NCBI GenBank assembly: GCA_023150845.1
Contig: JAKLKD010000068.1
Coordinates: forward strand, 1 to 52,460
DNA length: 52,460 bases
Reading direction: 5' to 3'
Source: Myxococcota bacterium
GTDB taxonomy: Bacteria; Myxococcota_A; UBA796; CAJQPC01
Below are positions 30,940 to 51,053 of this stretch, one piece after another. The notes under the pieces were generated by a model, which worked only from the letters and a program-made list of their open reading frames with translations, was not told where the DNA came from and did no database searches. The number at the start of each line of letters is the position of its first letter. Position 1 is the first letter of the stretch. The position numbers and the translations under genes were made by a program.

Positions 30940-30943
30940 CGGC

Positions 30944-33343: not shown

Positions 33344-33634
33344 GGACACTCCCGTGCGCCCGCCACGCGACGGGCTCCGCTTCTTCATGCCACACTGCGG
33401 GGAGGGTCGCAAAGCGTGGCGGAACAAAGTGGCCAGACCCTTGGAAATGCAAGACTTATGGCTCGGCAAAGTCGAGGATCAAAGATCCAAAGTGTTGTCC
33501 TGATGAACGAATCTCAACTTCATGGTATGGTGGATTCGCTGGACCGCCTCCAGGGCGACACGCCAGCACGCTCTCGCGCGCCCGCTGAATCTCCACCTTC
33601 CGACGGCCCCGACCCGGCCGGGGAGGACGCTGCA
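33344..33634. other. divergent intergenic region between sppA and dacB
   Basis: About 290 bases with a relatively A+T-rich core (33420-33535). A minus-strand candidate promoter is TTGATC (33481-33476) and CATAAG (33459-33454), 16 bases apart. A short inverted repeat GGATC-AAA-GATCC spans 33476-33488. No gene is supported here. Confidence 0.4.
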
Positions 33635-35209
33635 ATGTCCCACGCGCCGCTCACGATCGCCTCTACATCCTCCGCGCTCCGCTCGCTCCGTTGGGCCCTG
33701 CCCTTTGGCGCGTTGGGCCTCGCCTTGGGCCTGGGGCTCTCCATCGGCCAAGGCGCCGTCGCCCAAGATCAGGCGGCCCCTGTCGCCGTGGCCGCCCCGC
33801 CGCCGTCGCTGGAGGCGATGCTCAAGCCGATCACTGAAGATCGCCTCTTCACCGACGCCGCCGTCGGTGTGCAGGTCGTGGACGTCGCGTCGGGTCAAGA
33901 GGTCTTCTCCTGGAAGGCCGACGACAAGCTCATGCCGGCCTCGACGATGAAGGTGCTCACCTCCTCCGTCGCGCTGCGGGAGCTCGGGCCGTCGTTCCGC
34001 TACAAGACGGCGCTCCTCACCGACGCCAAGGCGGAGCTCGACAGCAAGGGCGTGCTCGGCGGCAACCTCTACGTGAAGGGCACCGGCGACCCCACCCTCG
34101 TCATCGAGAAGCTCTGGAAGCTCGTCTACGACCTCAAGATGGAGGGCGTGACCGAGGTGAGCGGCGACGTCATCTTCGACGACACCTACATGGACAAGGA
34201 GCGCCTCATCCCCGGCTGGGACAAGAAGTCCGACCTTGAGGACGGCCCCACCTACTTCTCGACCCTCGGCGCGTTGTCGCTCAACTACAACGCCGCCGCC
34301 CTCGTCGTCGGCCCCGGCCCTGAGGTCGGCGGCGCCGCCCGGGCCCAGCTTGAGGTGCCCTCGGCGGCGATCGTCGAGGTCGAGAACAAGCTCACGACCA
34401 CGGCCAAAGGCTCGCGGCGCAACATCCGCATGGAGCGTGAGGTCGAGGGCCGCACGATGAAGCTCACGCTCACCGGCACCGTGCCCCTCGGCGGCGAGTC
34501 GGAGCGTTTTTACCGCGTCGTGCCCGACCCCTCGGCCTACTTCGTCGCCTGCTTCGCGGAGCTGCTCAAGGCCCACGGCATCAAAGTGAAGGGCCAGTGG
34601 CGTGAGGCCGAGACGCCGGACAAGGTCCGCGAGCTGGCGAGCCTCCGCTCCGCGCCGCTCTCCGTGATCCTCATGGACGTCAACAAGAACTCCAACAACT
34701 TCTTTGCAGAGCAGGTGCTCAAGACCGTCGGCGCGGAGGTCAAAGGCGCCCCTGGCACCACCGCGAAGGGCCTTGAGGTCATCGCCGACTACCTCAAGGA
34801 GCTCGGCGTGGCGTCGGGCGAGTACACGGCCGTGAACGGCTCTGGGCTCTCCCGCGGCACCAAGTTCACCGCGGCCCAGCTCAACGCCGTGCTCGTCGAC
34901 ATGGCGATGAACGAGGACGTCACCCACGAGTTCCGCTCGTCTCTGGCCATCGGCGGGCGCGACGGCACCCTGTGGTCTCGGTTCCGCGACTCCGACGAGG
35001 TGGATCGTGTTCGCGCCAAGACGGGAACCCTCGACGGCGTGCATTGTCTCGCGGGGTATGCGTTGGGTCAGGACGGACGCCTCTATGCCTTCACCTTCTT
35101 CGTCAACGACCTGCCGTACAGCATCTCGCGCGCGCGGAAGGTCCAAGATCAGCTCGTGTCGGCGCTCTTCACCGCAGGCGCGGACGTCGTGGCTGAGCAG
35201 GCGCCCTGA
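33635..35209 (+). CDS. dacB: D-alanyl-D-alanine carboxypeptidase/endopeptidase (PBP4 type, S13)
   Basis: 524 residues. Signal peptide or anchor at about 15-43 (LRWALPFGALGLALGLG), then the S13 peptidase: SxxK motif Ser103-T-M-Lys106 (LMPASTMKVLTS), YVKGTGDPTL, GDVIFDDTYMD, SxN motif Ser353-N-N (NKNSNNFFAEQVLK) and KTG at 462-464 (RAKTGTLDG). It trims peptide cross-links of peptidoglycan in the periplasm. ATG 33635 has GGAGG nine bases upstream; the frame is open far upstream but nothing there resembles the family. Its stop is 29 bases before the strong promoter of the machine operon, with which it may share envelope functions. Confidence 0.95.
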   Translation: MSHAPLTIASTSSALRSLRWALPFGALGLALGLGLSIGQGAVAQDQAAPVAVAAPPPSLEAMLKPITEDRLFTDAAVGVQVVDVASGQEVFSWKADDKLMPASTMKVLTSSVALRELGPSFRYKTALLTDAKAELDSKGVLGGNLYVKGTGDPTLVIEKLWKLVYDLKMEGVTEVSGDVIFDDTYMDKERLIPGWDKKSDLEDGPTYFSTLGALSLNYNAAALVVGPGPEVGGAARAQLEVPSAAIVEVENKLTTTAKGSRRNIRMEREVEGRTMKLTLTGTVPLGGESERFYRVVPDPSAYFVACFAELLKAHGIKVKGQWREAETPDKVRELASLRSAPLSVILMDVNKNSNNFFAEQVLKTVGAEVKGAPGTTAKGLEVIADYLKELGVASGEYTAVNGSGLSRGTKFTAAQLNAVLVDMAMNEDVTHEFRSSLAIGGRDGTLWSRFRDSDEVDRVRAKTGTLDGVHCLAGYALGQDGRLYAFTFFVNDLPYSISRARKVQDQLVSALFTAGADVVAEQAP

Positions 35210-35238: not shown

Positions 35239-35268
35239 TTGACATGAACAGGGGGCGCCCGGTATACA
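35239..35268 (+). promoter_or_regulatory. strong sigma70-type promoter of the envelope-machine operon
   Basis: A perfect -35 TTGACA (35239-35244) and a -10 TATACA (35263-35268) are separated by 18 bases (17 if GTATAC is taken). Transcription would begin near 35275, giving an untranslated leader of about 80 bases before ATG 35357. This is the best promoter match in the window. Confidence 0.7.
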
Positions 35269-35356
35269 AGGGGTTGTGCGCGCGGCCAGGACTCGTGTGG
35301 AGCTGGTCGAGCTGTGCGCACCCTCGCCCTCCAATGGTGTGCCTGGAGCAGAACGG

Positions 35357-36013
35357 ATGAAGCGGTTGTTTAGCCTGGCCCTCGCTGTGGGCTGCTTCGT
35401 GACGCTCGCGCCGATTGGTCGCGCACAAGATGGCGGCGCCACCGAGACGCCTGCCGCCGACCCCACCCCAGCCGCGGGAGCCGCGGACACCGCGCGCTAC
35501 GACCCCCAGCTCGGGACCATGGAGGAGCGCGTCAACGGCCTCAAGGAGCAGGTGTTCCGCTCCAAGGCGACGCTGCAGCTCCTCAAGGAGATCATGCTCC
35601 AGGGCTCGACCGGCGGCGCGCGCAGCTCCGTCGTGCACGTCAACGAGCTTGGGCGCACCTACTCCATCGAGTCCGTCGCGTATTACCTCGATGGGCAGTC
35701 GATCTTCGCCAAGTTTGATCCCTCTGGCTCGCTGAACGACGCCAAGGAGATCTTGGTCTGGGACGGCGCCATCCCGCCGGGCCAGCATCAGCTCATGGTC
35801 ACGGTGGTGCTGCGCGGGCGGGGCTTCGGTGTCTTCAACTACATGGAAGACTACCGGCTCGACCGTGAGGCCACCTTCCCGTTCAACGCCCAGGAGGGTC
35901 AGGCCTCCAACCTTCGGGTGGTCGTGAACGAGAGCGCGCGTGGGTCCTATGTCGAGAAGCCCAAGCTCGACTTCCAGCTCCAGACCATCCAGCTTGACTC
36001 GGCGGACGAGTGA
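35357..36013 (+). CDS. periplasmic protein, first gene of the Glt-like operon
   Basis: 218 residues. Signal peptide MKRLFSLALAVGCFVTLAPI ending near GRAQ, a Pro/Ala-rich linker, a short coiled coil (MEERVNGLKEQVFRSKATLQ, about 60-80), then a beta domain (SIESVAYYLDGQSIFAKFD; AIPPGQHQLMVTVVLRGRGF) resembling PEGA-type folds. Not recognised by name. Similar genes next to TPR proteins in myxobacteria are, from memory, sometimes labelled dihydrolipoamide acetyltransferase, which the sequence does not support. ATG 35357 has GGAG nine bases upstream. It starts the operon driven from 35239 and is followed after 59 bases by a TPR gene, which suggests a role in the same envelope complex. Confidence 0.75.
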   Translation: MKRLFSLALAVGCFVTLAPIGRAQDGGATETPAADPTPAAGAADTARYDPQLGTMEERVNGLKEQVFRSKATLQLLKEIMLQGSTGGARSSVVHVNELGRTYSIESVAYYLDGQSIFAKFDPSGSLNDAKEILVWDGAIPPGQHQLMVTVVLRGRGFGVFNYMEDYRLDREATFPFNAQEGQASNLRVVVNESARGSYVEKPKLDFQLQTIQLDSADE

Positions 36014-36072
36014 AGCGAGAGGGGATTCGGATGAACCCCAAGTTCAAACAGGACTCCGTTGACGGGGGATGT

Positions 36073-38301
36073 ATGCGCGTCGTGGGTGTGCGAACGAGCG
36101 GACTTGGCGTGGTCTCGCGCCTCGCGCTCGTCGTCGGGCTTCTCACCGCGCCGGGGGTGGCGGCCGCTGAGGACGTCCAGTCCGCGCTCGCCGGGGTAGG
36201 GGAGGATCTCGCCGCCGCCGACAAGCGCATCAGCGAGATCAACGCCAACCTCACGAACCGCCGGGGGCTCATCGGCTCCTTTGAGGCCATCGCGCGCTAC
36301 GAGGACGCGGTCTATCGCTACCTCATGGGCGACTTCGACGGGGCCGCGAAGGAGTTCTTTACGCTCATCGAGTCGGGGGCCCTGGGCGACGACATCCGCC
36401 ACGCCGACTCCCAGTGGTACTTCGCCGAGTGCCTGTTTGAGCTCGGCAGCTACACCCTCGCTGAAGAGGGCTACAGCGTCATCGTGCGGTCCGGCGACCG
36501 CCACGCCCACTTCGCCTCTTCGGTGCGCCGCCTCTTGGAGCTCTACGGCATCACCGGCGACGCCAAGGCGTTCTACAACCTCTACAACGCCTACATCGTC
36601 TCCAACAAGGTCTCGGCGACGGACGAGGTGAAGTACACCCTCGCCAAGTCCTTCCGCCGCCAAGGCGCCGCGCTCTACGTCCAGGCGAACAACCTGCGCT
36701 GGCAGGGCCAGGTCTACGGCGCTGAGGCCATGCGGGATCAGGCCGAGCAGGCCTTCGCCCGGGCCAAGTCCCAGCTCACCCAGGTCGGCGCTGGGGGCAA
36801 CTTCTACGCCCGCGCTCGGTACTCCATCGGCGTCATTCTGCTGCAGCAGGGGGAGCTCGCCGCGGCCTACAAACGCGCCGAGGGCCAAGACGCCTCCGTC
36901 GCCGAGCTGCGCGCCGCCGCCTTTAGCGCGGCCATCGACGAGTTTAAGGTCGTCGCCGCCGTGCCCCAGACCTCGCCGGAGGACATCGAGGTCGTCGACC
37001 TCGCGAACCTCGCCATCGCTCGCCTCTACGACGAGCTCGGCCGCCACAACGAGGCCCTCGCCACCTACGCCCTCATCCAGCGCGCCTCAAAGTACTTCCC
37101 CGACGCCCTCTACGAGATGGTCTGGACGGCGATCAAGATCGAGGACTACGAGGCCGCCTTGGACTCGGCGGGCATCTTCCTCCTGGCCTACCCCGAGCAC
37201 CGCTACACGGCGCAGCTCAAGGTCATCCAGGGCAGCCTCCACATGAAGGAGAAGCAGTACAAGCAGGCCCTCGCCAGCTACGAGCGTGTCGTGGCCGAGT
37301 ACACGCCGCTCTACGACCGCGTCTCCAAGATCGCCGACGACAGCCTCGCGGCGAACGACTGGTTCAGCCGCCTCGCCGCCGCTCCGGATCCGGCCGCGTA
37401 CTTCAACGATGAGCTGCCGCTCTACGCCGTCGAGATGCTCGTCACCGACCCCGGCATGGCCAAGGCGCTGCGCATCTACCGCGAGGCCGAACGCCAGCGC
37501 GCGGACATCGCGGCCTCCGAGGCCCTCATCTCCGAGATCGAGGCGGCCTTGGCCGCGGGCGCGGGCGGCGCCGCCCAGGCCAGCGAACAAGAGCTCATCG
37601 GCGTGAGCCTCTCCCTGCAGCGCGCCCAAGGGGAGCTGCTCAGCGCGGAGGAGACCGTGCTCCAGGAGGTCGGCGACCCGGCGCTCCGCGAGAAGGTCGG
37701 CGCCATCACGCTCCGCCGTGAGCAGGCGCGCGCCGAGCTGACCTCCAGCCGGTCCGGCGGCGAGCTGAGCGCCAACCCCGCGCTCACCGCCGAGTACATC
37801 AAGCTCCGCGGCGAGCTCAAGGCCCTTCGGAGCGGGGTCACCGACCCCATCGCCAACGGCCAGCTCGCCGAGATCGACAAGCACTGGGCGACCTTGGGCG
37901 GCCTCGACAAGAAGGTCGCCGAGATCCAGGGCCGCCTCGGCGGCGTGCAGAGCGGCGAGCTGGCGACGATTCAGCGCCGCCTGGACCAAGAGAAGGCCGC
38001 CGTCGCCGCCTCCAAGGTCGCCGTAGACGCCACCTTGAGCGAGGCCGGCGCCCTGGCGGGCATGGTCACCCAAGAGGGCTTCCGCGAGCTTGAGGACCAG
38101 TTCGCGCTGTCGATCCTCAAGGCCGACCGCGGCATCGTCGATGTCTACTGGGTCGAGAAGGTGCGCGTGACCGACGAGCTCAAGGCGGTGAAGACCGACC
38201 GCAGCGCGATGGTCGCGAACCTGGAAGCGCAGTTCAGTGTCATTCGGCAGGGGCTACCGCCTGAGCCAACGCCAACGGCCGTCGAAGGGACGGAGGACTG
38301 A
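36073..38301 (+). CDS. periplasmic TPR and coiled-coil protein of the Glt-like machine
   Basis: 742 residues. Signal peptide (VVSRLALVVGLLTAPGVAAA, ending near residue 32). Helical repeats of TPR type occupy about 45-430 (YEDAVYRYLMGDFDGAAKEF; QWYFAECLFELGSYTLAEEG; QLKVIQGSLHMKEKQYKQAL). Then come long coiled coils at about 450-720, including ALISEIEAALAAG and TIQRRLDQEKAAVAASKVAV. The size and architecture resemble the TPR scaffold GltC of the myxobacterial gliding machine, although identity is not proven. Start: ATG 36073 has GGGGGA upstream and gives a proper signal peptide; ATG 36031 also has a ribosome site (GAGGGG) and would add 14 residues. It is separated from the next gene by one base. 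Confidence 0.8.
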   Translation: MRVVGVRTSGLGVVSRLALVVGLLTAPGVAAAEDVQSALAGVGEDLAAADKRISEINANLTNRRGLIGSFEAIARYEDAVYRYLMGDFDGAAKEFFTLIESGALGDDIRHADSQWYFAECLFELGSYTLAEEGYSVIVRSGDRHAHFASSVRRLLELYGITGDAKAFYNLYNAYIVSNKVSATDEVKYTLAKSFRRQGAALYVQANNLRWQGQVYGAEAMRDQAEQAFARAKSQLTQVGAGGNFYARARYSIGVILLQQGELAAAYKRAEGQDASVAELRAAAFSAAIDEFKVVAAVPQTSPEDIEVVDLANLAIARLYDELGRHNEALATYALIQRASKYFPDALYEMVWTAIKIEDYEAALDSAGIFLLAYPEHRYTAQLKVIQGSLHMKEKQYKQALASYERVVAEYTPLYDRVSKIADDSLAANDWFSRLAAAPDPAAYFNDELPLYAVEMLVTDPGMAKALRIYREAERQRADIAASEALISEIEAALAAGAGGAAQASEQELIGVSLSLQRAQGELLSAEETVLQEVGDPALREKVGAITLRREQARAELTSSRSGGELSANPALTAEYIKLRGELKALRSGVTDPIANGQLAEIDKHWATLGGLDKKVAEIQGRLGGVQSGELATIQRRLDQEKAAVAASKVAVDATLSEAGALAGMVTQEGFRELEDQFALSILKADRGIVDVYWVEKVRVTDELKAVKTDRSAMVANLEAQFSVIRQGLPPEPTPTAVEGTED

Positions 38302-38302
38302 G

Positions 38303-41300
38303 ATGAACCCGCTTCACCGCCTCACCCGCCGACTCACTCTGACCCTCGCCTTGGGCCTGCCCGCCGCGGCCAGCGCCCAGGACGTGCCGCTCATCAACCC
38401 TCCTCCGGGCGGCCGCAACGCCGAGCGTGTGACCGGCGTCACCACCGAGGAGATGGCGGCTTACGAGGACACCCTCAGCCGCTTCCGGGAGCGCTCCGCG
38501 GAGTTCTCCGGAGACGCCCGGGCCATCGTCGACCAGATCGAGCGCGAAGAGCGCGCCGAGCTCGACTTCGCCTATGGCCCCCTGCTGACCGACCTTGAGG
38601 TCGAGCAGCGCCGCCTGCGCGACGAGTCCATCCGCCGTTTTGAGGCCTTCCTCGTCCGTTACCCGAGCACCGAGTACTCGGCGACGGTCATGTTCCGCCT
38701 CGCCGACCTCTACTTCGACGTCGCGGGCGAAGACTACCTCCGCCAGATGGACGAGCGCACGGCCTTAGAAGACCGCCTCACCATGGAGCAGCGCTTCGAG
38801 CTGCCGCCGCCGCCTTCGGTGGACTACAGCCGCTCCATCGCGCTCTACCGCCGGATCCTCGCCGAGTACCCGAACTTCGAGTACACCGACGGCACCCTCT
38901 ACATGCTCGGCTACTGCTACGGCGAGACGAGCACCGACGTCGAGATGGACGCCGAGGAGCTCTCCAAGAGCTACTACGAGCAGCTCGTCGCCCGTTTCCC
39001 CGAGTCGCGCCTCGCCATCGACGGCAACTTCGCGCTGGGGATGTACCACTTCGACAACTACAACGTGAAGCAGGCCCTCGCCCACTTCCAGAAGGTCACC
39101 GAGCGCGCCGAGAAGGGCAACGCCCTCTACGACCGCGGCATGTACATGCTCGCGTGGTCGCAGTACCGCCTCTCTGACTACGAGGGCGCCTTCGACACGT
39201 TCACGCGCCTGCTCGACTTCTCGTTGGAGTACTACAAGGAGTCCGGCAAAGACTCCAACATGAAGCCCGACGCCTTGGAGTACCTCGCGATCTCCATGAT
39301 CGACGTCGCCAAGAACTCGGAGTCCTTCTCCGATCCCAACTGGCGGAAGTACTCCACGGACCCCTTGGTCTCCTCCGGACAGCTCCTCGCCTCGACGGGC
39401 TACGGGCTCAACCCCGCGGGCCCCATCCAGGTCTTTGACCTGTGGTTCAACAAGGTCGGTCGCCGCGAGTACGAGATCGAGGTCATCAAGACCTTGGCGG
39501 CGAAGCTGGAGGAGGCGTCCTACGCTGAAGACGCCATCGCCACCTACGAGTACATCCAGCAGAAGTGGCCGACGGACCCCGAGAACCCCGACTTCCAGTA
39601 CCGCATCTCCCAGCTCTACATCTCCGGCGTCGCCGTCCGGGATGACGCCGCCGCCGACGCGGCCCTCGCCAAGCTCGGCGAGATGTACAACGACGACAGC
39701 GCCTGGGCGGCGGCCAACCGCAACAACCCCGACGCCTTGGCGAAGGCCCAAGCCTACCAAGAGCAGTCGTTGTACTCGGTCGCCACGGGCTTACACGCCC
39801 GCGCCCAGCAGACCGGCAGCATCGCCGACTACTCCATGGCGGCCGACCGCTACCGCGAGTACCTCAACAAGTTCCCCTTCGCGAACCAGTACTACCAGAC
39901 CCAGTTCTACCTGGCCGAGGCGCTGTACTCCTCCGAGCGGTTTGAGGAGGCCATCGTCGAGTACGACGCGCTCCTCAAGGTGCCCGGCGAGGAGTGGACC
40001 GAGGCCGCCCAGGTCCGCATCTTCGTGAGCTGGTACAACCTGCTCAACCAGCGTTACGGCGACCTCCAGAAGCTCCCGCCAGACGCCGTCGTCGAGCGCA
40101 CTGAAGAGACGAAGACCGGCGAGCAGCGCAACGTGTACATGCTCTCCGATCTCCACAAGGAGTTCATCAAGTCCGCCGACTCGATGAAGGCCGCCTCGTT
40201 CAAGAACGAGACCTGGGAGACCGCCCGACAAGAGAACCTCTCGGTCTACTACTACCTCCCGGCGCAGATCTACATCGTGCACGGCCACCACGAGGAGGGC
40301 CGCAAGCGCATGGAGGAGGTCATCACCCTCTACCGGCGCACGAAAGAGGCCTCCTACGCCGCGAGCTACATCGTCGATAGCTACCTCGCTGAAGGGGACC
40401 TGGAGAACGTCGCCAAGTACTCGGCCTACTACCGCATGATGACCGACCTCGGCGCCAACGAGCGGGTCGACACTGCGGCCGTGAAAGATCGTTTCATTAC
40501 CCTCGAGGCCGAAGCGCAGTTCAAGATCGCCAACAAGCTCATCGCGGTTGATCCCCTTCAGGCCGCCAAGGCCTTCGAGGACTACCTCGTCCAGTACCCC
40601 AACGCCCCCGAGATCGCCCTCAAGTACGCGCTGTACAACGCCGCGAACCAGTACGAGATCGGCGGCAAGGCCGACCGGGCGAACGAGCTCTTTGAGCGGT
40701 TCATCAACAGCTACCCCAAGGACGAGCTCGCCCCGCCGCTCTACTTCCGAATCGCCACGAACTACGCCTCGGTCTTGGAGCTGAACAAGTCCGTCGAGTA
40801 CTACGAGCGCCTGTACAAGAACTTCCCCACGTCCCCCGACGCCCCGGCGGCGCTGTACATGGCGGGCTTCTTGCGCACGGGGCTTGGCGATCACAAGGGC
40901 GCGGCGCAGAACTTCATGACCTACGTCGAGAAGCTGCCGCCCCAGCCCGACGCTGAGGCCGTGTACTGGCTCGCGGGCCAGCAGTGGCAGCTCGTCGGCG
41001 ACAAGGAGGCGCTCAGCTTCTACCGCCGCTACCTCCAGCGTTTCCCGGACTCGAGCCCCGACCACGTCATGGAGGCCTACCACTTCATCGCGAAGTACTA
41101 CGAGCGCACCGGCGACAAACGCGCCGCCGAGCAGGCTTGGAAGGACATCACGACGAACTACGCGCGCCTCGCCGCCAAGGGCACCCTCGGTCCCAAGGCG
41201 CGAAACATCGGCGCCGAGGCCGCCTTCCGCGACATGCAGGCCGCCTACAACGCCTTCATCAAGGTCAACTACCCCAAGAAGGAAGAGGACCTGATCAAGT

Positions 41301-41809
41301 ACCTCCTGGAGGACAAGCCCAAGGAGTTCGCCGCCATCACCCAGATGGAGCTGGCGCTCATCACGACCTACCAGGACTTCGAGTACAGCTCCGCCGCCCT
41401 CTACATCTCCGGCGCCACCTTCATCGCCTGGGCGGACATGTTCTACAACGCCCCGGCCTCGCCGCAGATCGCCGCGGATGAGGATCTCCTCGCCGCGTAC
41501 CGTGAGGAGCTCGACAAGCTCGGCCGCCCGGCTGAAGAGAAGGGCATCTCGCGCCTCCAGGCGAACCTCCAGAAGTCCAAGGACGAGAAGCGCGCCTCGG
41601 TCTGGATCGACAAGTCGATCGCGATGCTGAACGACCGCGACCCGCTGAACTACCCCCTGGAGAAGGCCGAGGTTCGTGGGCAGAGCACGGCCTCCGTGCT
41701 CCCCACCTCTGGGCCCTTGGACATGCCGAAGCCTGAGCCCGCGCCCGCGCCGACGACGCCCGCGCCGGCGACGCCCGCGCCGACGACGCCCGCGCCGGGG
41801 ACGCCATGA
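38303..41809 (+). CDS. very large TPR protein (GltD/AgmU-like)
   Basis: 1168 residues. Signal peptide LTRRLTLTLALGLPAAASAQ (about 9-28). The whole body is helical repeat: FEAFLVRYPSTEYSATVMFR, SRLAIDGNFALGMYHFDNYN, YAEDAIATYEYIQQKWP, AFEDYLVQYPNAPEIALKYA, SVEYYERLYKNFPTSPDAPA and others, each an A-B helix pair with Tyr/Pro ends typical of TPR. The C-terminus is a low-complexity Pro/Ala/Thr tail encoded by a 15-base repeat. Length and organisation match GltD (AgmU) of Myxococcus xanthus, a periplasmic and outer-membrane-linked scaffold of the gliding complex; the assignment is by resemblance. ATG 38303 has GGAGG six bases upstream and follows the previous stop by one base. Confidence 0.82.
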   Translation: MNPLHRLTRRLTLTLALGLPAAASAQDVPLINPPPGGRNAERVTGVTTEEMAAYEDTLSRFRERSAEFSGDARAIVDQIEREERAELDFAYGPLLTDLEVEQRRLRDESIRRFEAFLVRYPSTEYSATVMFRLADLYFDVAGEDYLRQMDERTALEDRLTMEQRFELPPPPSVDYSRSIALYRRILAEYPNFEYTDGTLYMLGYCYGETSTDVEMDAEELSKSYYEQLVARFPESRLAIDGNFALGMYHFDNYNVKQALAHFQKVTERAEKGNALYDRGMYMLAWSQYRLSDYEGAFDTFTRLLDFSLEYYKESGKDSNMKPDALEYLAISMIDVAKNSESFSDPNWRKYSTDPLVSSGQLLASTGYGLNPAGPIQVFDLWFNKVGRREYEIEVIKTLAAKLEEASYAEDAIATYEYIQQKWPTDPENPDFQYRISQLYISGVAVRDDAAADAALAKLGEMYNDDSAWAAANRNNPDALAKAQAYQEQSLYSVATGLHARAQQTGSIADYSMAADRYREYLNKFPFANQYYQTQFYLAEALYSSERFEEAIVEYDALLKVPGEEWTEAAQVRIFVSWYNLLNQRYGDLQKLPPDAVVERTEETKTGEQRNVYMLSDLHKEFIKSADSMKAASFKNETWETARQENLSVYYYLPAQIYIVHGHHEEGRKRMEEVITLYRRTKEASYAASYIVDSYLAEGDLENVAKYSAYYRMMTDLGANERVDTAAVKDRFITLEAEAQFKIANKLIAVDPLQAAKAFEDYLVQYPNAPEIALKYALYNAANQYEIGGKADRANELFERFINSYPKDELAPPLYFRIATNYASVLELNKSVEYYERLYKNFPTSPDAPAALYMAGFLRTGLGDHKGAAQNFMTYVEKLPPQPDAEAVYWLAGQQWQLVGDKEALSFYRRYLQRFPDSSPDHVMEAYHFIAKYYERTGDKRAAEQAWKDITTNYARLAAKGTLGPKARNIGAEAAFRDMQAAYNAFIKVNYPKKEEDLIKYLLEDKPKEFAAITQMELALITTYQDFEYSSAALYISGATFIAWADMFYNAPASPQIAADEDLLAAYREELDKLGRPAEEKGISRLQANLQKSKDEKRASVWIDKSIAMLNDRDPLNYPLEKAEVRGQSTASVLPTSGPLDMPKPEPAPAPTTPAPATPAPTTPAPGTP
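41741..41806 (+). repeat. 15-base tandem repeat encoding TTPAP-type units
   Basis: About four copies of a 15-base unit built on ACGCCCGCGCCG encode the C-terminal TTPAPATPAPTTPAP of the large TPR protein. Copies differ at one or two bases, so the copy number may vary between strains or be mis-assembled. Confidence 0.8.
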
Positions 41810-41849
41810 TCCGCCTTCCGCGCCCTCTGCGCATCACGGAGGCTACTCG

Positions 41850-43274
41850 ATGAGCCTGATCCCGCTCCTCCTGCTCTCCCTCGCGTGTAAGAAGCCCGTT
41901 GACCCCGTCGCTGGTGGTGATCCCGCCGCGGCGGAGGTGCAGGCCGCCATCGACGCCGCCGCCCAAGGCCAGACCGGCACGACGCCGACGGCCGAGGCGC
42001 CCAAGGGCTCGGACACCCGATCGCAGATCGGCCAGGCCACGGCGCTGCTCACGACGAAGAAGCCTGAGGACGCCCGCGCCGCGGTCGATCGCCTCAAGGG
42101 CCTGCTCGTCAGCGAGCCGAACAACCCCTACATCCACTTCAACCTCGGCGTGGCTTACGAGGTGATGGGGGACCAGACCAGCGCCCGCGACGCCTACCTC
42201 GAGGCCGTGCGTATCCAGAAGGACTTCGGCCCGGCCTACCTCAACCTCGCGGCGATGGACATGCGCAGCGGCCAGTACGATCGCGCCGCGAGCCGTTACC
42301 GCCTGGGCATCTCCAACGATCCCGACAACATGGATCTCTGGGTCGGCCTCATCTCGGCGCTCCAGAAGCAGGGCAAGCTCACCGAGGCCGAGGCCGAGGC
42401 GAAGAAGGCGCTGCAGATCAACTCCAACGCGCTCAACGTCTACAACAACCTGGGCCTCGTCTACATCGAGCGCGGCCAGCTCGACCTGGCGAACTTCATC
42501 TACCAGAAGGCGCTCACGACGGTGCCTGGCGCCGACGCCAGCGCGAACATCCACTGCAACCTGGGCCGCATCTACCAGCTCCAGGGCAAGTCCGGCGACG
42601 CCAAGCAGGCGCTCACGAAGGCCTTGGAGCGTGATCCCAACCTCGTCCCCGCGCTGATGTACTTGACCGAGTACAACCTCGCGAACCGCAACTTCGTGGA
42701 CACCGTGCCGCTCATGGAGCGCGCCCGCGACCTCGATCCCGGCAACCCGAACATCTACATGAACCTCGGCGTCGCCTACCGCGGGACCGCCCGCTACGAC
42801 GAGGCCCGCGCCGCCTACGAGCAGGTCATCAAGCTCAAGCCTGAGGATCCCGATCCCCACCTCAACCTGGGCATCCTCTACGGCGACTACATGAAGAACT
42901 ACGACGCGGCCATCGCCGAGTACGAGCTCTACATCAAGATGGGCGGCTCCCAGTCCTCCGCGGTCCAGGTGTACATCGAGAACACCCGGAAGGAGCAGGA
43001 GAAGGTCAAGAAGATGGAGGAGCGCAAGAAGCGCGCCGAGGAGGACGCCAAGCGTCGCGAGGCCGCCAAGGCTGAGGAGGAGCGGAAGGCCCGTGAGGCC
43101 GCCGCTGCCGAGGCCGCCGCCGCCGCAGCCGCCGCGTTCGGCGGAGCGCAGCCTCCGGTCGATCCCGCGCCGCCCACACCCCCGCCCGACGGTGGTACAG
43201 CTCCTCCGGTGCCCGCGCCCGAAGGCACCACCCCGCCCGCGACCCCGCCCACCGACAACCCCTGGGGAGGCTGA
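41850..43274 (+). CDS. TPR lipoprotein (GltE/AglT-like)
   Basis: 474 residues. MSLIPLLLLSLAC is a lipoprotein signal with Cys13 (LSLAC), so the protein is lipid-anchored, most likely at the outer membrane. At least seven canonical TPRs follow at about 65-365 (NPYIHFNLGVAYEVMGDQTS; ALNVYNNLGLVYIERGQLDL; NPNIYMNLGVAYRGTARYDE; DPHLNLGILYGDYMKNYDAA). After them comes a charged coiled coil (about 385-425, Lys/Glu/Arg), an Ala-rich run and a Pro-rich tail. This is the arrangement of AglT/GltE, the TPR lipoprotein of the gliding machine, by resemblance. ATG 41850 has ACGGAGG about seven bases upstream. It is followed after three bases by a small secreted-protein gene. Confidence 0.83.
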   Translation: MSLIPLLLLSLACKKPVDPVAGGDPAAAEVQAAIDAAAQGQTGTTPTAEAPKGSDTRSQIGQATALLTTKKPEDARAAVDRLKGLLVSEPNNPYIHFNLGVAYEVMGDQTSARDAYLEAVRIQKDFGPAYLNLAAMDMRSGQYDRAASRYRLGISNDPDNMDLWVGLISALQKQGKLTEAEAEAKKALQINSNALNVYNNLGLVYIERGQLDLANFIYQKALTTVPGADASANIHCNLGRIYQLQGKSGDAKQALTKALERDPNLVPALMYLTEYNLANRNFVDTVPLMERARDLDPGNPNIYMNLGVAYRGTARYDEARAAYEQVIKLKPEDPDPHLNLGILYGDYMKNYDAAIAEYELYIKMGGSQSSAVQVYIENTRKEQEKVKKMEERKKRAEEDAKRREAAKAEEERKAREAAAAEAAAAAAAAFGGAQPPVDPAPPTPPPDGGTAPPVPAPEGTTPPATPPTDNPWGG

Positions 43275-43277
43275 CCC

Positions 43278-43517
43278 ATGCGCTCCGCTCTGATCGCCCT
43301 CTGCGCCGTGATCGCGCTCGCCGCGTTGGCGCCCCTCGCGCTCGCCCAAGGCCGCCGGATCACGATCACCGAAGACGACAAGATCGTCGGCGAGATCCAG
43401 CGCCCGGACGTGCCCATGATCATCCTGCGCTCGAACCTCAACCAAGACTACGATCTCGTCCTGCGCGAGAGCTTCTTGCCCAAGATCATCGAGTCGGTGG
43501 ATCAGCGCCCCTTCTGA
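43278..43517 (+). CDS. small exported protein, 79 residues, in the machine operon
   Basis: Signal peptide MRSALIALCAVIALAALAPL ending at ALAQ, then only about 55 mature residues: RRITITEDDKIVGEIQRPDV, a hydrophobic MIILRS, and LRESFLPKIIESVDQRPF. The short strand-turn-strand beginning ITITEDDKIVGEI looks like part of a beta-sheet that could pair with another protein. I do not recognise the family. It begins three bases after the TPR lipoprotein stop, with GGGAGG eight bases upstream, so it is tightly co-expressed with it. It is the last gene before a hairpin and a new promoter. A small stabilising or plug-like subunit is possible but is inference. Confidence 0.7.
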   Translation: MRSALIALCAVIALAALAPLALAQGRRITITEDDKIVGEIQRPDVPMIILRSNLNQDYDLVLRESFLPKIIESVDQRPF

Positions 43518-43535
43518 TCCTGCGGCGTCTTGACG

Positions 43536-43551
43536 GTTCGTTCACGAACCC
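43536..43551 (+). terminator. hairpin after the TPR gene block
   Basis: GGTTCGT (43536-43542) and ACGAACC (43545-43551) form a perfect 7-base stem with two bases between, 18 bases after the 79-residue gene. No U-tract follows, so this may be a weak terminator, a processing site or an operator-like palindrome. Confidence 0.4.
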
Positions 43552-43676
43552 CGAGAGACGCGCCAATGTCCCCCTCAACAGCGGCTGAACCGCGCATCGC
43601 TTTGAGATCTCAACGAATCGTCGGGACAAAACCCAACTGCTCAATGAGTCTGACAGCGACTTCACAAAGTTCAGTC

Positions 43677-43705
43677 GTGAAATGTTCTCTCGCTTGATGT
43701 AGATT
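43677..43705 (+). promoter_or_regulatory. candidate promoter of the stator genes
   Basis: GTGAAA (43677-43682) and TAGATT (43700-43705) are 17 bases apart, each with four of six consensus bases, in the most A+T-rich stretch of the 289-base gap (43518-43806). The leader to ATG 43807 would be about 95 bases. The gap holds no gene. Confidence 0.4.
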
Positions 43706-43806
43706 CCTCCGGTCTTGGAGAGCCTCAACCGAGGTGATCCTCGCGGTAGGCCAGCGGGCCTCGGGCCCCTCACCCTCGTCATCATCAACTTCACCTGGAG
43801 ACCAAC

Positions 43807-44472
43807 ATGGCCTTCTTTATCGACGCGATGCAGAAGGGCGGGCCCTTCATGTGGCCCATTCTCGCCTGCGCTATCTTCGGGGCCGCGATCAGCGCTGAGC
43901 GCATCTACTACATCTTCTTCCGCGCCGACATCAACGGCACCGCGTTCTTCGCCCAGATCCAGAAGCTGATCATGGCGAACAACATCGACCGCGCCATCAA
44001 GCTCTGCACCGCCGAGCCCAACCGCGCCCTCGCCCGCGTGCTCAAGGCTGGCCTCTCCCGCGCCAACCGCTCCGAGGGCGAGATTCAGGCCGCCGTCGAT
44101 GAGTCCGTGCTTGAGGTCTACCCGACCCTCTCCAAGCGCATGCCCTACCTCTCGATGATCGCCAACGTGGCCACGCTGACCGGCCTCCTCGGCACCATCC
44201 AGGGCCTCATCGCCGCCTTCGAGGCCGTGGCCCACGCCTCCGCCGAGACGAAGCAGACGCTCCTCGCGTCTGGTATCTCCGTCGCCATGTTCACCACTCT
44301 CGCCGGTCTGGTTGTCGCCATCCCCGTGCTGGTCGTCTCCTCGATCATCCAGGGCCGCATCACCAAGATCCAGGACGACGTGGACCAGTACGCGACCAAG
44401 ACGGTGAACCTGCTCACCGCTCGTCGCCGCGGCACCCTCGACAAGGAAGGCGGGGCTGAGGCTTCGGCCTGA
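43807..44472 (+). CDS. MotA/TolQ/ExbB-type proton-channel protein (AglR-like)
   Basis: 221 residues with three membrane segments at about 13-37, 115-143 and 155-180, as in the family. The conserved core is LSMIANVATLTGLLGTIQGL (115-134) followed by SGISVAMFTTLAGLVVAIPV (155-174), which line the proton path; the cytoplasmic loop (40-110) is typical. With ExbD-type partners it forms a proton-driven stator in the inner membrane. The two ExbD-like genes follow directly, then an FHA-like/TonB-C protein, the same set as aglR-aglQ-aglS with a Glt component in M. xanthus. ATG 43807 has CTGGAG six bases upstream. Confidence 0.92.
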   Translation: MAFFIDAMQKGGPFMWPILACAIFGAAISAERIYYIFFRADINGTAFFAQIQKLIMANNIDRAIKLCTAEPNRALARVLKAGLSRANRSEGEIQAAVDESVLEVYPTLSKRMPYLSMIANVATLTGLLGTIQGLIAAFEAVAHASAETKQTLLASGISVAMFTTLAGLVVAIPVLVVSSIIQGRITKIQDDVDQYATKTVNLLTARRRGTLDKEGGAEASA

Positions 44473-44559
44473 GCTGTCGCTGAGGTTCGTGGGGTGAGCG
44501 TCGAGAACTCTCCCGACGCTCGCCCCAACCTCTGACCTCTACTCCTCTGGAGCGCTGGA

Positions 44560-45102
44560 ATGGCTGGCAAACGTGCTCATGTCCAGGAAGAGCCGCTGAA
44601 CCTGGTTCCGATTATGAACCTGGTCTCGATTCTCATCCCCTTCCTGTTGATGGCGGCGCAGTTCGTGACCCTCGCGGTCATCGACTCCACTCTCCCCGCG
44701 ATCGGGCCGCCCCAGGAGGTCGAGACCCCTCCCGACAAGCCCCCGCTCATGCTCTCCGTGGCCGTCACCAACGAAGGCTTCACGGTGATGGGCGCTGACG
44801 CGGTGCTCAACCCCCAAGGTGCGCCGCCCTCGGCGGACGCTGGCCCGACCGTGCCGTGCCAGGAGCGCCCCTGTCAGACTCCCCAGTCCTACGACTACAA
44901 GGCGCTGACCGAGCTCCTCAACCAGATCAAGGATCAGTACCCCGACGACGAGACCGTCATCTTGGTGCCTGAGTCCCGGATCCCCTACGAGGTCATCGTC
45001 TTGCTCATGGACGCCACCCGTGAGGACGTGAACAAGAAGGACGACAAGGGCAAGTCCCGGTTGCTCTTCCCCAACGTGGTCATCGCCGGCGGCGCAGGCT
45101 GA
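44560..45102 (+). CDS. ExbD/TolR-like protein with Asn in place of the membrane Asp
   Basis: 180 residues. A single membrane segment (about 14-41, LNLVPIMNLVSILIPFLLMA) and a periplasmic domain (VAVTNEGFTVMG; LLNQIKDQYPDDETVILVPE; IPYEVIVLLMDATRE) fit ExbD/TolR. The family's protonatable Asp (ExbD Asp25, in INVTPFID) aligns with Asn20 here. This subunit therefore cannot carry protons in the usual way and may be structural, in a stator where the second ExbD-like protein keeps Asp. A Cys pair (PCQERPC, 106-112) in the periplasmic part could form a disulfide. It starts 87 bases after the TolQ-like gene with CTGGAG upstream and belongs to the same operon. Confidence 0.85.
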   Translation: MAGKRAHVQEEPLNLVPIMNLVSILIPFLLMAAQFVTLAVIDSTLPAIGPPQEVETPPDKPPLMLSVAVTNEGFTVMGADAVLNPQGAPPSADAGPTVPCQERPCQTPQSYDYKALTELLNQIKDQYPDDETVILVPESRIPYEVIVLLMDATREDVNKKDDKGKSRLLFPNVVIAGGAG

Positions 45103-45165
45103 TCGGATCTCCCTCTTCCTTCTCTCCACTCTTGCCCGGTCTACCTGGGCTTTCAGAGAGCGGTC

Positions 45166-45687
45166 ATGAAAAAGCCCCGTCGTGGAACAGTCAGCGATGA
45201 GCTGAACATCACCTCGATGATGGACATGTTCACCATCATCCTGGTCTTCCTCCTCAAGTCGTACTCCACCGAGGACATCTCCGTGGCGGCGTCGGGAGAT
45301 CTAGAGCTGCCGGTCTCGACCACCATGGTCAAGCCCAAGCTCGCCGTGAACGTCGTCGTCTCCAAGTCGAGCATCACCGTGGACGGCACGCCCGTCATGG
45401 CGCTCACGCGGAAGCCTGACGAGACCGGCAAAGAGTGGATCGCTGTGCCCGACGAAGAGAAGAAGGGCCAGATGATCACGCGCCTCTACGACCGCCTCCT
45501 GGAGAAGGCGGAGCAGGCCAAGCGCATCGCCGAGGCCACGGCCTCCGAGGAGCACGCCTTCAAGGGCGAGATCCTCATGCAGTGCGACAAGGAGCTCCCG
45601 TTCTCCGTCATCCGCGAGGTCATGTACACCGCGGGCCAGGCGCAGTTCTCGAACTTCCGGTTCGTCGTCTACTCGTCTACGAGCTGA
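45166..45687 (+). CDS. ExbD/TolR-like protein with conserved membrane Asp
   Basis: 173 residues. Basic N-terminus MKKPRRGTV, then one membrane segment at about 14-33 (LNITSMMDMFTIILVFLL) in which Asp20 occupies the proton-carrying position of ExbD/TolR. The periplasmic domain includes LAVNVVVSKSSITVDGTPV and a KGEILMQCDKELPFSVIREV segment matching the family's strand-helix end. It is probably the proton-conducting partner of the TolQ-like protein, with the Asn-type paralogue upstream as second subunit. The ATG at 45166 is only 63 bases after the previous gene, but a clear ribosome site is not evident. A strong terminator-like hairpin lies 28 bases after its stop. Confidence 0.9.
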   Translation: MKKPRRGTVSDELNITSMMDMFTIILVFLLKSYSTEDISVAASGDLELPVSTTMVKPKLAVNVVVSKSSITVDGTPVMALTRKPDETGKEWIAVPDEEKKGQMITRLYDRLLEKAEQAKRIAEATASEEHAFKGEILMQCDKELPFSVIREVMYTAGQAQFSNFRFVVYSSTS

Positions 45688-45714
45688 TTCAGGCCCCCCT
45701 GCTCGGGGAAGTTG

Positions 45715-45765
45715 AAGGGTGTTCACTCGCGTCGCTTGCGCCAGTGGGCACCCTTCGTTTATTCT
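45715..45765 (+). terminator. intrinsic-type terminator after the stator genes
   Basis: AAGGGTGTTCACT (45715-45727) pairs along its full 13 bases with AGTGGGCACCCTT (45743-45755), counting two G-U pairs, around a 15-base loop that can form a small inner stem. It is followed by a T-rich CGTTTATTCT. This is the best intrinsic terminator in the window. The 307-base gap (45688-45994) otherwise holds no supported gene; a second promoter for the next gene is likely within it. Confidence 0.7.
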
Positions 45766-45994
45766 GCGATCGTGCCCCCGCCTGCGAAGGTGGGAGCCGG
45801 AGCGTCAAGAATCTTCGCCCAGACTCTTCACTCTGATACACTCATCCTGTGGTAACACCCGCTTGAGATCTCCCGAGAACTTCACCTCCGATTCATTGTC
45901 CGGTCTTCGGGCAGACAGGCGGGTCGCCTGGGCCTCTTCGGGGTGTGAAGTTTTCCAGGAAGCTCGGGAACCAAGGTCTACAGGGAATTGATCC

Positions 45995-47335
45995 ATGGCG
46001 CAGCCTCAGCGACAGACGCAGGTCCAGATCAAGGTTCTTCGCATCGGCATCGTCCAGGACGGCAAGATCGTCAAGGAAGAGCTGATCAAGTCTGGAGATC
46101 CCGTCACCATCGGGGACTCCGACAAGAACACCTTTCAGCTCGCCACGCCCACCTTGGGCAAGCGATTCCAGCTCTTTGAGCCCCAGAAAGGCGGCACGTA
46201 CAACCTTGTCTTCACCGACGGCATGACCGGCCGCGTGTCGTACAAGGATGACGTGCTGGGCTTTGACCAGCTCAAGACCGCGAGTGAGGTCGTCAAGAAG
46301 TCGGACGGCTTCCACCTGCCGCTGAACGACAGCAACCGCGGCAAGATCATCGTCGACGGCCTCACGATCCTCTTCCAGTTCGTGCCGCCGCCGCCCGAGC
46401 CCTTGGGCGCGTCGATGGACTTCCGGCCGAAGTTCATCGAGGACGACGACCCCGTCTACTATGGCTTCCTCAGCGTGTTCTGGGCCCTGGGCATCGTCTT
46501 CGGCATCATCACGGTGAACGCGCCGCCCCGGCAGCCCTCCGTCGATGAGCTCCCCGAGCGCTTCACCCAGATCATCAGCACGCCTCCTTCGGAGGAGACC
46601 CCTCCGCCCCCTGAGCCTGTCGAGTCCGACGAGGGCGAGCAGGTGGTCAAGAAGGAGGAGGCGGAGTCCTCGGAGAAGGTCGCCAAGAAGCCGGAGAAGG
46701 ACGCCGCGGCGCGCCGTGAGCAGGCCCGTGAGCAGGTCATGCAGCAGTCCCGCCTGCTGATGGCGATCATCGGTACGCGCGGTGAGTCCGCCTCGGGCAG
46801 CCGCGTCGAGGATCTCCTCGGCGAGGGCGACTTCGCGGGTCAGGACCTCGACGCCGCCTTGGCGAACGTCTCCGGCGCTGAGGTCGCCTCGTCCACCTCC
46901 ATGGAGGCCCGCACGGGCACCGCGGGTGGCCGCCGTGACGCGGACATCGGCGACCTGCAGGGCGGAAAGGTCGGCGCTGTCGGCGTCGGCTCAGGCCCGG
47001 CCGTCCAGGTCAGCGGCAACATCGGCGTCGAGCAAGAGGACGCCTACCTTGAGTCCGGCGACGCCGCGGCCGTCAAGAAGGTCGTGAAGAAGCAGTCGGG
47101 CCAGGTGAAGTACTGCTACGAGTCCCAGCTCAAGTCCAACCCCACCCTCGCGGGTCGTGTGGAGATCACCTTCTTGGTGAAGGCGGGCCGCGTCACCAGC
47201 GCCAAGGCCGCCTCGAACAGCACCGGCAGCGACGCCTTGGCCCAGTGCATCGTCGGCAAGGTGAAGAGCTGGCGCTTCGGTGAGGACGTCGTCGGCGAGT
47301 TCACCTACCCGTTCTCGCTCACGCCCTCGAGCTGA
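45995..47335 (+). CDS. trans-envelope protein: FHA-like domain, membrane helix, TonB-like C-domain (GltG/AgmX-like)
   Basis: 446 residues. Cytoplasmic N-domain (about 8-130) has an FHA-like fold (VTIGDSDKNTFQL) but lacks the GR and S-x-x-H phosphopeptide residues. One membrane helix at about 154-174 (VYYGFLSVFWALGIVFGIIT), then a Pro/Glu/Lys-rich periplasmic stretch, a Gly-rich region, and a C-terminal TonB-like domain at about 352-443 with Cys374 and Cys418 (VKYCYESQLKSNP; ALAQCIVGKVKSWRFG), the AgmX/PglI-type C-terminus. It could bridge cytoplasm to outer membrane and transmit force from the stator, as proposed for GltG/GltJ in M. xanthus. ATG 45995 has AGGGA upstream. It is a single-gene unit after the terminator at 45715. 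Confidence 0.85.
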   Translation: MAQPQRQTQVQIKVLRIGIVQDGKIVKEELIKSGDPVTIGDSDKNTFQLATPTLGKRFQLFEPQKGGTYNLVFTDGMTGRVSYKDDVLGFDQLKTASEVVKKSDGFHLPLNDSNRGKIIVDGLTILFQFVPPPPEPLGASMDFRPKFIEDDDPVYYGFLSVFWALGIVFGIITVNAPPRQPSVDELPERFTQIISTPPSEETPPPPEPVESDEGEQVVKKEEAESSEKVAKKPEKDAAARREQAREQVMQQSRLLMAIIGTRGESASGSRVEDLLGEGDFAGQDLDAALANVSGAEVASSTSMEARTGTAGGRRDADIGDLQGGKVGAVGVGSGPAVQVSGNIGVEQEDAYLESGDAAAVKKVVKKQSGQVKYCYESQLKSNPTLAGRVEITFLVKAGRVTSAKAASNSTGSDALAQCIVGKVKSWRFGEDVVGEFTYPFSLTPSS

Positions 47336-47352
47336 TTCATCGTTCGTTCGCC

Positions 47353-47387
47353 GACCGGGCCGGGCGCTCACCACGTCCGGCCCGTCG
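47353..47387 (+). terminator. GC-rich hairpin after the GltG-like gene
   Basis: GGGCCGGGCG (47357-47366) pairs with CGTCCGGCCC (47374-47383) with one G-U, plus outer CGAC/GTCG pairs around a bulge, 18 bases after the stop. It is followed by TCGTGCGTTTGG rather than a clean U-tract. Probable terminator. Confidence 0.55.
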
Positions 47388-47886
47388 TGCGTTTGGGGGG
47401 GACGTCATGGGCCTGACGCTGTCGCTCTCCGCTCCTGCGGTCGCCCGCGCCACGGCCGCGCCGCGCTCGCGGATCCTCCTCGGAGCCAGAGATGCGAAGG
47501 AAAGGGATGTGAAAGATCCAAATTTTGAGGCAGGTCGCCGTCGCGTGCGTGCGGCGCCGCCAATCTTCGGTCACCCGGGCGCGGGTCGGCGGGCCTCGGC
47601 CGGTCGAGCGAGCGCCGGTCGGCGGGGCAGGGGGCTCCGGTCCGAGCTCGGCGTCGAGCGGTCGGGGAGATCCGCCGAGAGTTTGACGAAGACACTACAG
47701 ATCGTGGCGCGCGCGTCATCGAGTGGTCTCGCGTCGGCGCCTGCCGAGGATTCTTTCAGCCACGGCAAGGAGTTGCCCTCCTCACGATCGAGCGTGGCCC
47801 GCTCACGAGACCTTGATCTTTCCTTCAGATCCGGTGATCTGGAATGATCTGTGCGGTGTCTGAACAACATGAGAGGCGGCGTGCGG
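47388..47886. other. long non-coding gap, no gene supported
   Basis: About 500 bases without a convincing gene. The plus-strand open frame at 47407-47847 has no family resemblance, is Arg/Ser-rich like out-of-frame GC-rich sequence, and lacks a ribosome site. Visible features are a direct repeat GGTCGGCGGG at about 47585 and 47617, an A+T-rich patch near 47508-47530, and a hairpin CAGATC-CGGT-GATCTG at 47826-47841 within a cluster of four GATC sites (47815-47850). A small RNA or regulatory region is possible. Confidence 0.5.
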
Positions 47887-47916
47887 TTGACAGCCCCGCC
47901 CGTTCAACGGTAACGT
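47887..47916 (+). promoter_or_regulatory. promoter with perfect -35 before the 178-residue protein
   Basis: TTGACA (47887-47892) followed 18 bases later by TAACGT (47911-47916), a weak -10. Transcription would start near 47923, giving a leader of about 17 bases containing the ribosome site CAGGAG before ATG 47940. Confidence 0.55.
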
Positions 47917-47939
47917 CCTGCTGTCCTCAGGAGTGCGTC

Positions 47940-48476
47940 ATGACCATTCGGAACCTCTTCGTGCTCACCGTGGCGCTCGGGTTCAGCTCGCCCGCTGCGC
48001 TCGCCCAGGATCCGGCGAGCCAAGGCGAGGTCGTGAGCGGCTCCTCGACGTCTTCTTCGCAGAAGATCCAGTTCGGCCGCGACGCGATCACCGACATGAA
48101 GGCGACCGCTGAGTACGTCAACGGCCTGCTCGTCACCGCCCAGCCCGAGCAGGACGCGGTGAAGATTCAGTGCCTCAACAAGAAGCTCTCCGCCGTGCGC
48201 GCGCTGGTCCAGGTCAGCGAGTCTGCGTTGGCGAGCATGCAGGAGGCCCTCGCCGTCGGAGACGACGGGCGCGCCGACTACGAGTTCCGGAAGATCGGCG
48301 TCGCCAAGAACAAGGCGAACCAGTTCCGGGGCGAGGCGGACGCTTGTGTCGGCGAAGAGGGGAAGGCCGAGACCCAAGAGAGCGCCAAGTACGAGGGCGC
48401 TGAGCTCAGTGAGACCATCGCCGATGGGAACACGGGCATCGGGATCGACCCTCCTGGCGTCTCGCCCTTTGAGTGA
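47940..48476 (+). CDS. small periplasmic protein of unknown function
   Basis: 178 residues. Signal peptide MTIRNLFVLTVALGFSSPAA ending at LAQ. The mature part is mainly helical (RDAITDMKATAEYVNGLLVT; KKLSAVRALVQVSESALASM; EFRKIGVAKNKANQFRGEAD) with two Cys (IQCLNKK and DACVGEE) placed to form a disulfide, and a low-complexity Gly/Pro end. I do not recognise the family. ATG 47940 has AGGAG five to six bases upstream and a promoter at 47887. It is followed after 104 bases by an outer-membrane barrel gene, so it may act as a periplasmic partner of that protein. Confidence 0.75.
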   Translation: MTIRNLFVLTVALGFSSPAALAQDPASQGEVVSGSSTSSSQKIQFGRDAITDMKATAEYVNGLLVTAQPEQDAVKIQCLNKKLSAVRALVQVSESALASMQEALAVGDDGRADYEFRKIGVAKNKANQFRGEADACVGEEGKAETQESAKYEGAELSETIADGNTGIGIDPPGVSPFE

Positions 48477-48580
48477 GCGCGTTCTACAATCCGAGGACGC
48501 GCCGCCCACACGGGTCGCGCGAAAGACTTCTCGCGGCCCCGCCGCTCGCTGAGGTAGGCCAGACGTTGAGGCAAGAAGCG

Positions 48581-50075: not shown

Positions 50076-51053
<978 letters not shown>

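Follow-up and report, generated by a model that had tools for sequence, protein, structure and literature searches.

Gene content of the locus

By the window we mean the whole stretch of 52,460 nucleotides that was analysed. Eleven genes lie on its forward strand at 35357-50035, in the order p01, GltC, GltD, GltE, GltF, AglR-like, two ExbD-like, GltG, p10 and p11, and form the block of a predicted trans-envelope machine. The features of the block and its neighbours are:

33635-35209, forward: DacB-type D-Ala-D-Ala carboxypeptidase (PF02113, 3.5e-97); membership of the machine uncertain
35239-35268, forward: promoter-like TTGACA-18-TATACA, read by eye
35357-36013, forward: p01, exported protein, hallmark of G4-type clusters, equivalent of MXAN_1924 (conserved position)
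36073-38301, forward: GltC homologue, TPR protein, 742 aa (NF033756, 7.2e-22, 78 bits, cut-off 450)
38303-41809, forward: GltD homologue, TPR protein, 1168 aa, G4 clade, MXAN_1922 orthologue (tree, orthology)
41850-43274, forward: GltE homologue, TPR lipoprotein, 474 aa (NF033758, 2.8e-32; LSLAC lipobox)
43278-43517, forward: GltF/CglF homologue, exported protein, 79 aa (NF033764, 1.7e-4; family alignment)
43807-44472, forward: AglR/TolQ/ExbB-like motor protein (PF01618, MotA_ExbB, 1.8e-25, above cut-off)
44560-45102, forward: ExbD-like 1, AglQ position (PF02472, 1.7e-11, above cut-off)
45166-45687, forward: ExbD-like 2, AglS position (PF02472, 1.6e-10, above cut-off)
45995-47335, forward: GltG homologue, 446 aa (NF033760, 7.2e-39; NF033768, myxo_SS_tail, 5.6e-22, above cut-off)
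47940-48476, forward: p10, exported helical protein with two conserved Cys, equivalent of MXAN_1917 (alignment; conserved position)
48581-50035, forward: p11, predicted outer-membrane beta-barrel of WzpB (MXAN_1916) type (model, PF10082, WzpB homology)
50076-51053, reverse: galE-like epimerase, convergent with p11, a neighbour and at most a putative member (same arrangement in loci L047, L051, L062 and L097)

The first-pass annotation had given the correct sizes for the three TPR proteins (742, 1168 and 474 aa, the last a lipoprotein with LSLAC) and for the 79-aa exported protein, and the TolQ-like, two ExbD-like and 446-aa GltG-like proteins that it listed are all present by Pfam/NCBIfam matches; the genes stand as it listed them, but the unit extends beyond the 47335 at which its span stops, and runs to 50035 with p10 and p11. 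The strong promoter that it described can be read by eye at 35239, but a consensus promoter scan reports none at this position, because the scan accepts only T as the sixth base of the second hexamer. The larger intergenic gaps are those of 289 nt after GltF, 307 nt after ExbD-like 2 and 604 nt after GltG, the others being short, so several transcripts are possible. The GltG homologue consists of a degenerate FHA-like N terminus, a single membrane segment and a TonB-like tail; a canonical FHA domain is unsupported, since no Pfam FHA match was obtained and the alignment starts at residue 215 of the GltG profile.

A search of the unit's proteins against NCBIfam gave no name for p01, p10 or p11, and p01 had no family name from Pfam either. 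In the p01 model (pLDDT 77) a beta-sandwich comes after a long helix; the fold search returned weak beta-sandwich matches at most for it, and nothing meaningful was matched by p10 in a fold search against the PDB. The DacB-type gene is conserved just upstream of p01 in the loci examined from the window's order and in L188 (another family of the same class), and its product could open peptidoglycan for the machine. Further upstream, 30944-33469 on the reverse strand encodes 841 aa that by eye resemble a peptidase of SppA type carrying an additional exported region at its N terminus, and the gene for an NtrC-type response regulator (29554-30957) comes after it.

Relationship to the Glt-type clusters of M. 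xanthus

M. xanthus has four GltD-like genes, and a GltD tree of 32 rows gave a 100/100 split into two clades. One clade holds the window, every p01-bearing locus and the M. xanthus copy beside MglB-MglA, MXAN_1922, a listed gltD homologue of the G4 cluster (PMC3169522); the other holds the remaining M. xanthus copies together with this genome's own copies on contigs C141 and C96. Orthology with M. xanthus gltD rather than with MXAN_1922 failed on the same split. Because masA (MXAN_1927) adjoins the mgl operon (PMC3546991), with mglB-mglA as MXAN_1926-1925, counting places p01 at MXAN_1924, GltC at MXAN_1923 and GltD at MXAN_1922.

The profile scores point the same way. Against the GltG profile (cut-off 650 bits) the gliding GltG of M. 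eversor scored 1063 bits and its G4 GltG 172, the window GltG 134 and the GltG on contig C141 of this genome 382; GltC and GltE of the window reached 78 of 450 and 112 of 225 bits. All Glt equivalog scores of the unit fall below the curated cut-offs, so its Glt proteins are relatives rather than gliding orthologues. Judged from the tree split and the GltG scores, the window cluster is a G4-type machine, orthologous by sequence to the MXAN_1922 cluster, and a second Glt-type set, which lies outside the window in this genome and has higher gliding-profile scores, is nearer the gliding/spore-coat side. The first reading of the parts as Glt/Agl homologues is therefore confirmed by the NCBIfam and Pfam matches and by GltD orthology, but the reading as the Agl-Glt gliding complex fails, since GltD is of the G4 clade and a separate set is closer to the gliding profiles; the "ancestral or variant form" and the "polysaccharide transport" among its options survive.

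A profile search of the unit named no GltA/B/H/I/J/K, AglZ or CglB, and the best GltJ candidate in the genome reached 57 of 450 bits with the tail domain only, so that none was above cut-off. An ordinary Tol-Pal or TonB-ExbBD system was rejected, as no TolA, TolB or Pal partner was found in the unit by profile search and the motor protein failed the TolQ equivalog test (60.6 of 221 bits). Elsewhere in this genome, a second protein near the window GltG (244 bits) is encoded at L071:10256-11527 (contig C154), without any other recognised Glt-type gene on the contig, and the C-terminal domain of AgmX/PglI is matched 15 times, with seven matches above cut-off, pointing to many TonB-like envelope couplers.

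The outer-membrane end

The partners first left without a name turn out to be informative: p01 and p10 remain without a family name, and 48581-50035 (p11) can now be assigned to a WzpB-type porin. The p11 model has 18 long strands (mean pLDDT 81) and the protein matches PF10082 above cut-off (4.9e-9). A p11 HMM built from the window's order alone matched in M. xanthus the 421-aa barrel adjoining WzaB (84 bits, 3e-25), and left unmatched the barrels beside the other two OPX genes, which belong to other polysaccharide pathways. The fold search returned generic outer-membrane barrels at low TM-score, so the assignment relies on the number of strands, the Pfam match and homology with WzpB at the sequence level. 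On these grounds p11 is a WzpB homologue and a predicted outer-membrane barrel.

The gene next to p11 in relatives encodes an OPX protein by Pfam. Continuing the G4 numbering, the M. xanthus cluster ends at MXAN_1916-1915, so that it lies between mglBA and these two genes, which encode the porin WzpB and the OPX protein WzaB of the BPS pathway (PMC9603273, PMC9601211, PMC7310880). The wzaB mutant acts as BPS-minus, and the gene has been termed orphan-like (PMC7310880). In the window no OPX gene adjoins p11 and the galE-like gene stands there, as in L047, L051, L062 and L097. Two OPX genes are present in this genome, the WzaB-like one scoring 197 bits versus 135 for the other. The neighbours of this WzaB-like gene on contig C29 (G000:C29) encode a flippase of Wzx type, a protein of Wzy type and a sulfotransferase; no barrel resembling p11 was found at that locus.

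Motor genes and the Asp28 column

The M1 motor of M. xanthus was recognised by the published AglR/AglQ lengths of 245/162 aa (PMC3169522) and by Asp28 in AglQ. By profile, M2 scored higher than M1 for each of the three subunits (AglR-like 245 versus 204 bits, ExbD-like 1 115 versus 39, ExbD-like 2 143 versus 83), which places the motor apparently nearer M2; the AglR tree gave no clear placement with M1 or M2. At the column of AglQ Asp28, ExbD-like 1 carries Asn20 in the alignment, and Asn or Ser occupies this column in 46/50 in-unit rows, some of which are the same genome reached through two collections. ExbD-like 2 retains Asp20, and Asp is found there in 52/52 rows, both M. xanthus motors included. 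A proton-binding Asp is thus not present in both ExbD-type subunits. Since D28N in AglQ abolishes proton conductance, motility and sporulation in M. xanthus (PMC3858216), motors of the window type would have to depend on the second subunit, or operate in another way.

Conservation across the phylum

Each of the 58 relatives searched, of which nearly all belong to the window's order, gave a GltD match; the matches are close in most of them, and in a few incomplete genomes only a distant paralogue is present. The eleven genes are collinear in nearly all loci with enough sequence. In a phylum sample p01 was found in 262/379 genomes, p11 in 223/379 and GltG in 258/379 (E<=1e-30), and the block is common to most sampled genomes of the phylum. 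That named Myxococcaceae have the orthologous cluster points to Myxococcota as this phylum. Such recurrence of the gene order across order and phylum rules out a chance assembly.

For the adjacency counts, loci of the order that came from the genome search were left out because they duplicate genomes of the first set. The p11 gene follows GltG in 69/73 loci (28/28 in the window's order and near kin, 20/22 in Myxococcaceae and relatives, 21/23 in other families), and an OPX gene follows p11 in 51/62 (16/26, 19/19 and 16/17, respectively). Motor genes lie within the Myxococcaceae cluster in 0/25 cases; in these loci, for example L121, mglBA stands directly upstream of p01 in place of DacB.

Several loci depart from this pattern. 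The Myxococcaceae loci (for example L121) carry a cyclic-nucleotide-binding-like protein between GltG and p10; L053 and L107 share a variant with inverted motor genes, a tandem GltG-like pair, no detected GltC and a first ExbD that keeps its Asp; L052 has AglR and no detected ExbD-like gene, and no motor gene was detected in L118. The records of L092, L104, L105, L118 and L152 are titled Klebsiella pneumoniae, Bifidobacterium breve or Comamonas sp., and their organism names look wrong, the cluster there adjoining myxobacterial-type genes.

Proposed function and alternatives

We propose, with a probability of about 0.58, that the locus encodes a self-contained Agl-Glt/Nfs-family machine of the G4 branch arranged around a polysaccharide outlet, whose motor would export, release or place a BPS-like polymer. 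The machine would be a cousin of the myxobacterial gliding machine, and handling of secreted polysaccharide is more likely than movement because an outer-membrane sugar-polymer pore is encoded in the same block. From the gene content, orthology, conserved linkage and predicted barrel we infer its assembly, coupling and function as follows. Judged by their families, the AglR-like and the two ExbD-like proteins would form a proton-driven inner-membrane motor; GltG may link this motor to the periplasm, as its M. xanthus homologues GltG and NfsG contact AglR in two-hybrid assays; GltC, GltD, GltE, GltF, p01 and p10 would constitute a periplasmic relay; and the relay would act through a putative contact on the p11 porin, which would work with a WzaB-type OPX protein, whose gene adjoins p11 in most relatives and lies at another place in this genome. 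The motor may thereby drive export, release or surface placement of the polymer, by analogy with Agl-Nfs, which uses proton power to carry the Exo polymer of the spore coat across the spore (PMC3858216) and so provides a precedent for a polysaccharide job of a Glt-type machine.

Some observations speak against this polysaccharide role. Motility is normal after a polar disruption of MXAN_1922 and after MXAN_3004 is deleted (PMC3169522), whereas swarms that lack BPS are compromised (PMC7310880); the core may thus be dispensable for BPS export, or the insertion may not be polar. The window has no adjacent OPX gene, and its first ExbD lacks the Asp that is essential in AglQ. Further, as the Myxococcaceae locus is without motor genes, its motor would have to come from M1 or M2. 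We suggest only tentatively, at somewhat less than even odds, that G4, M2 and the "orphan-like" WzpB-WzaB pair would be one proton-powered polysaccharide machine, old in the phylum and with a single-Asp motor in most lineages, and that the machines for gliding and for the spore coat would be its specialised sisters.

The conserved DacB gene upstream in the order, and a single-copy, broad distribution that suggests a general role, would also fit an envelope-maintenance or cell-wall machine of Tol-Pal-like type, in which DacB opens peptidoglycan and p11 is merely a structural anchor; this is rather unlikely, since the OPX partner and the WzpB homology point to polysaccharide, mglBA stands in for DacB in Myxococcaceae, and the unit is without Tol-Pal partners. 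That the unit has a motor and every core Glt part, that the Myxococcaceae cluster follows mglBA, the motility polarity switch, and that this genome has MglA-like GTPases would agree with a gliding/focal-adhesion machine, with p11 as an outer-membrane anchor replacing GltA/B/H. We consider it unlikely and do not favour a gliding machine proper after the GltD tree and profile scores, which separate the G4 clade from the remaining Glt-type copies and give a second set the higher gliding scores; moreover, G4 and M2 mutants glide normally (PMC3169522), and GltJ is missing above cut-off from the genome. The generic barrels of the p11 fold search do not fix the cargo, which would allow secretion of protein or other non-polysaccharide material with p11 as outlet, but homology to WzpB and the co-encoded OPX, a polysaccharide-specific partner, make this very improbable. 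With the polymer outlet in the same unit, a motor for BPS-like polymer is favoured.

The clustered cores (2011) and all part families are known. In the open-access literature searched we found no report of the union of G4 core, motor and WzpB-WzaB or of the lost Asp, an absence that is not proof, and we found no later functional study of the G4 locus tags in the open-access literature searched. The proposal assigns a function that can be tested to the G4 and M2 clusters, which were labelled unknown in 2011, and offers a reason for the position of wzaB/wzpB about 1 Mb from the BPS cluster; it suggests that polysaccharide handling is perhaps an older Agl-Glt job than gliding, and the natural replacement at the AglQ D28N site is useful for testing two-subunit ion-driven motors.

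Comparison with known systems

The union of motor and Glt genes noted at first pass is correct, and core complexes encoded at a single locus had already been published for Geobacter, gammaproteobacteria and Fibrobacter (Luciano 2011, PMC3169522). These have gltC, gltD, gltE, gltG and aglRQS in one locus, as in the window, which adds GltF, p01, p10 and p11, and to which relatives often add WzaB. The "additional gene" of that study was rejected as p01, because it has no homologue in Myxococcales and p01 has one.

The Agl-Glt gliding machine of M. xanthus (G1, G2, M1) shares with the window homologous GltC, GltD, GltE, GltF and GltG and an AglRQS-type motor, whereas the window lies on the other branch of the GltD tree, has AglQ Asp28 replaced, and yielded no GltA/B/H/I/J/K in the unit. 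Agl-Nfs likewise combines a Glt-type core and a proton motor with a Wzx/Wzy-type polymer, its OPX protein and barrel being ExoA and ExoB, but its barrel is encoded apart from nfs, and the p11 profile has no match to non-WzpB barrels. In the Class 3 OPX/beta-barrel translocons (WzaB-WzpB, EpsY-EpsX, ExoA-ExoB), p11 would correspond to the WzpB-type barrel, with OPX adjacent in most relatives; no earlier description of such a translocon in a Glt-type motor unit was found in the open-access literature searched.

The closest counterpart is M. xanthus G4 (MXAN_1924-1915) with M2 (MXAN_3003-3005), which shares an orthologous GltD with the window. The order p01-C-D-E-F-G-p10-WzpB is the same in both. 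The M. xanthus locus contains no motor genes, follows mglBA, carries an additional cyclic-nucleotide-binding-like gene and ends with WzaB, whereas in the window the motor genes lie within the unit, DacB precedes it and WzaB is missing. In the split of outlet genes from polymer genes this genome resembles M. xanthus, the two being far apart in both.
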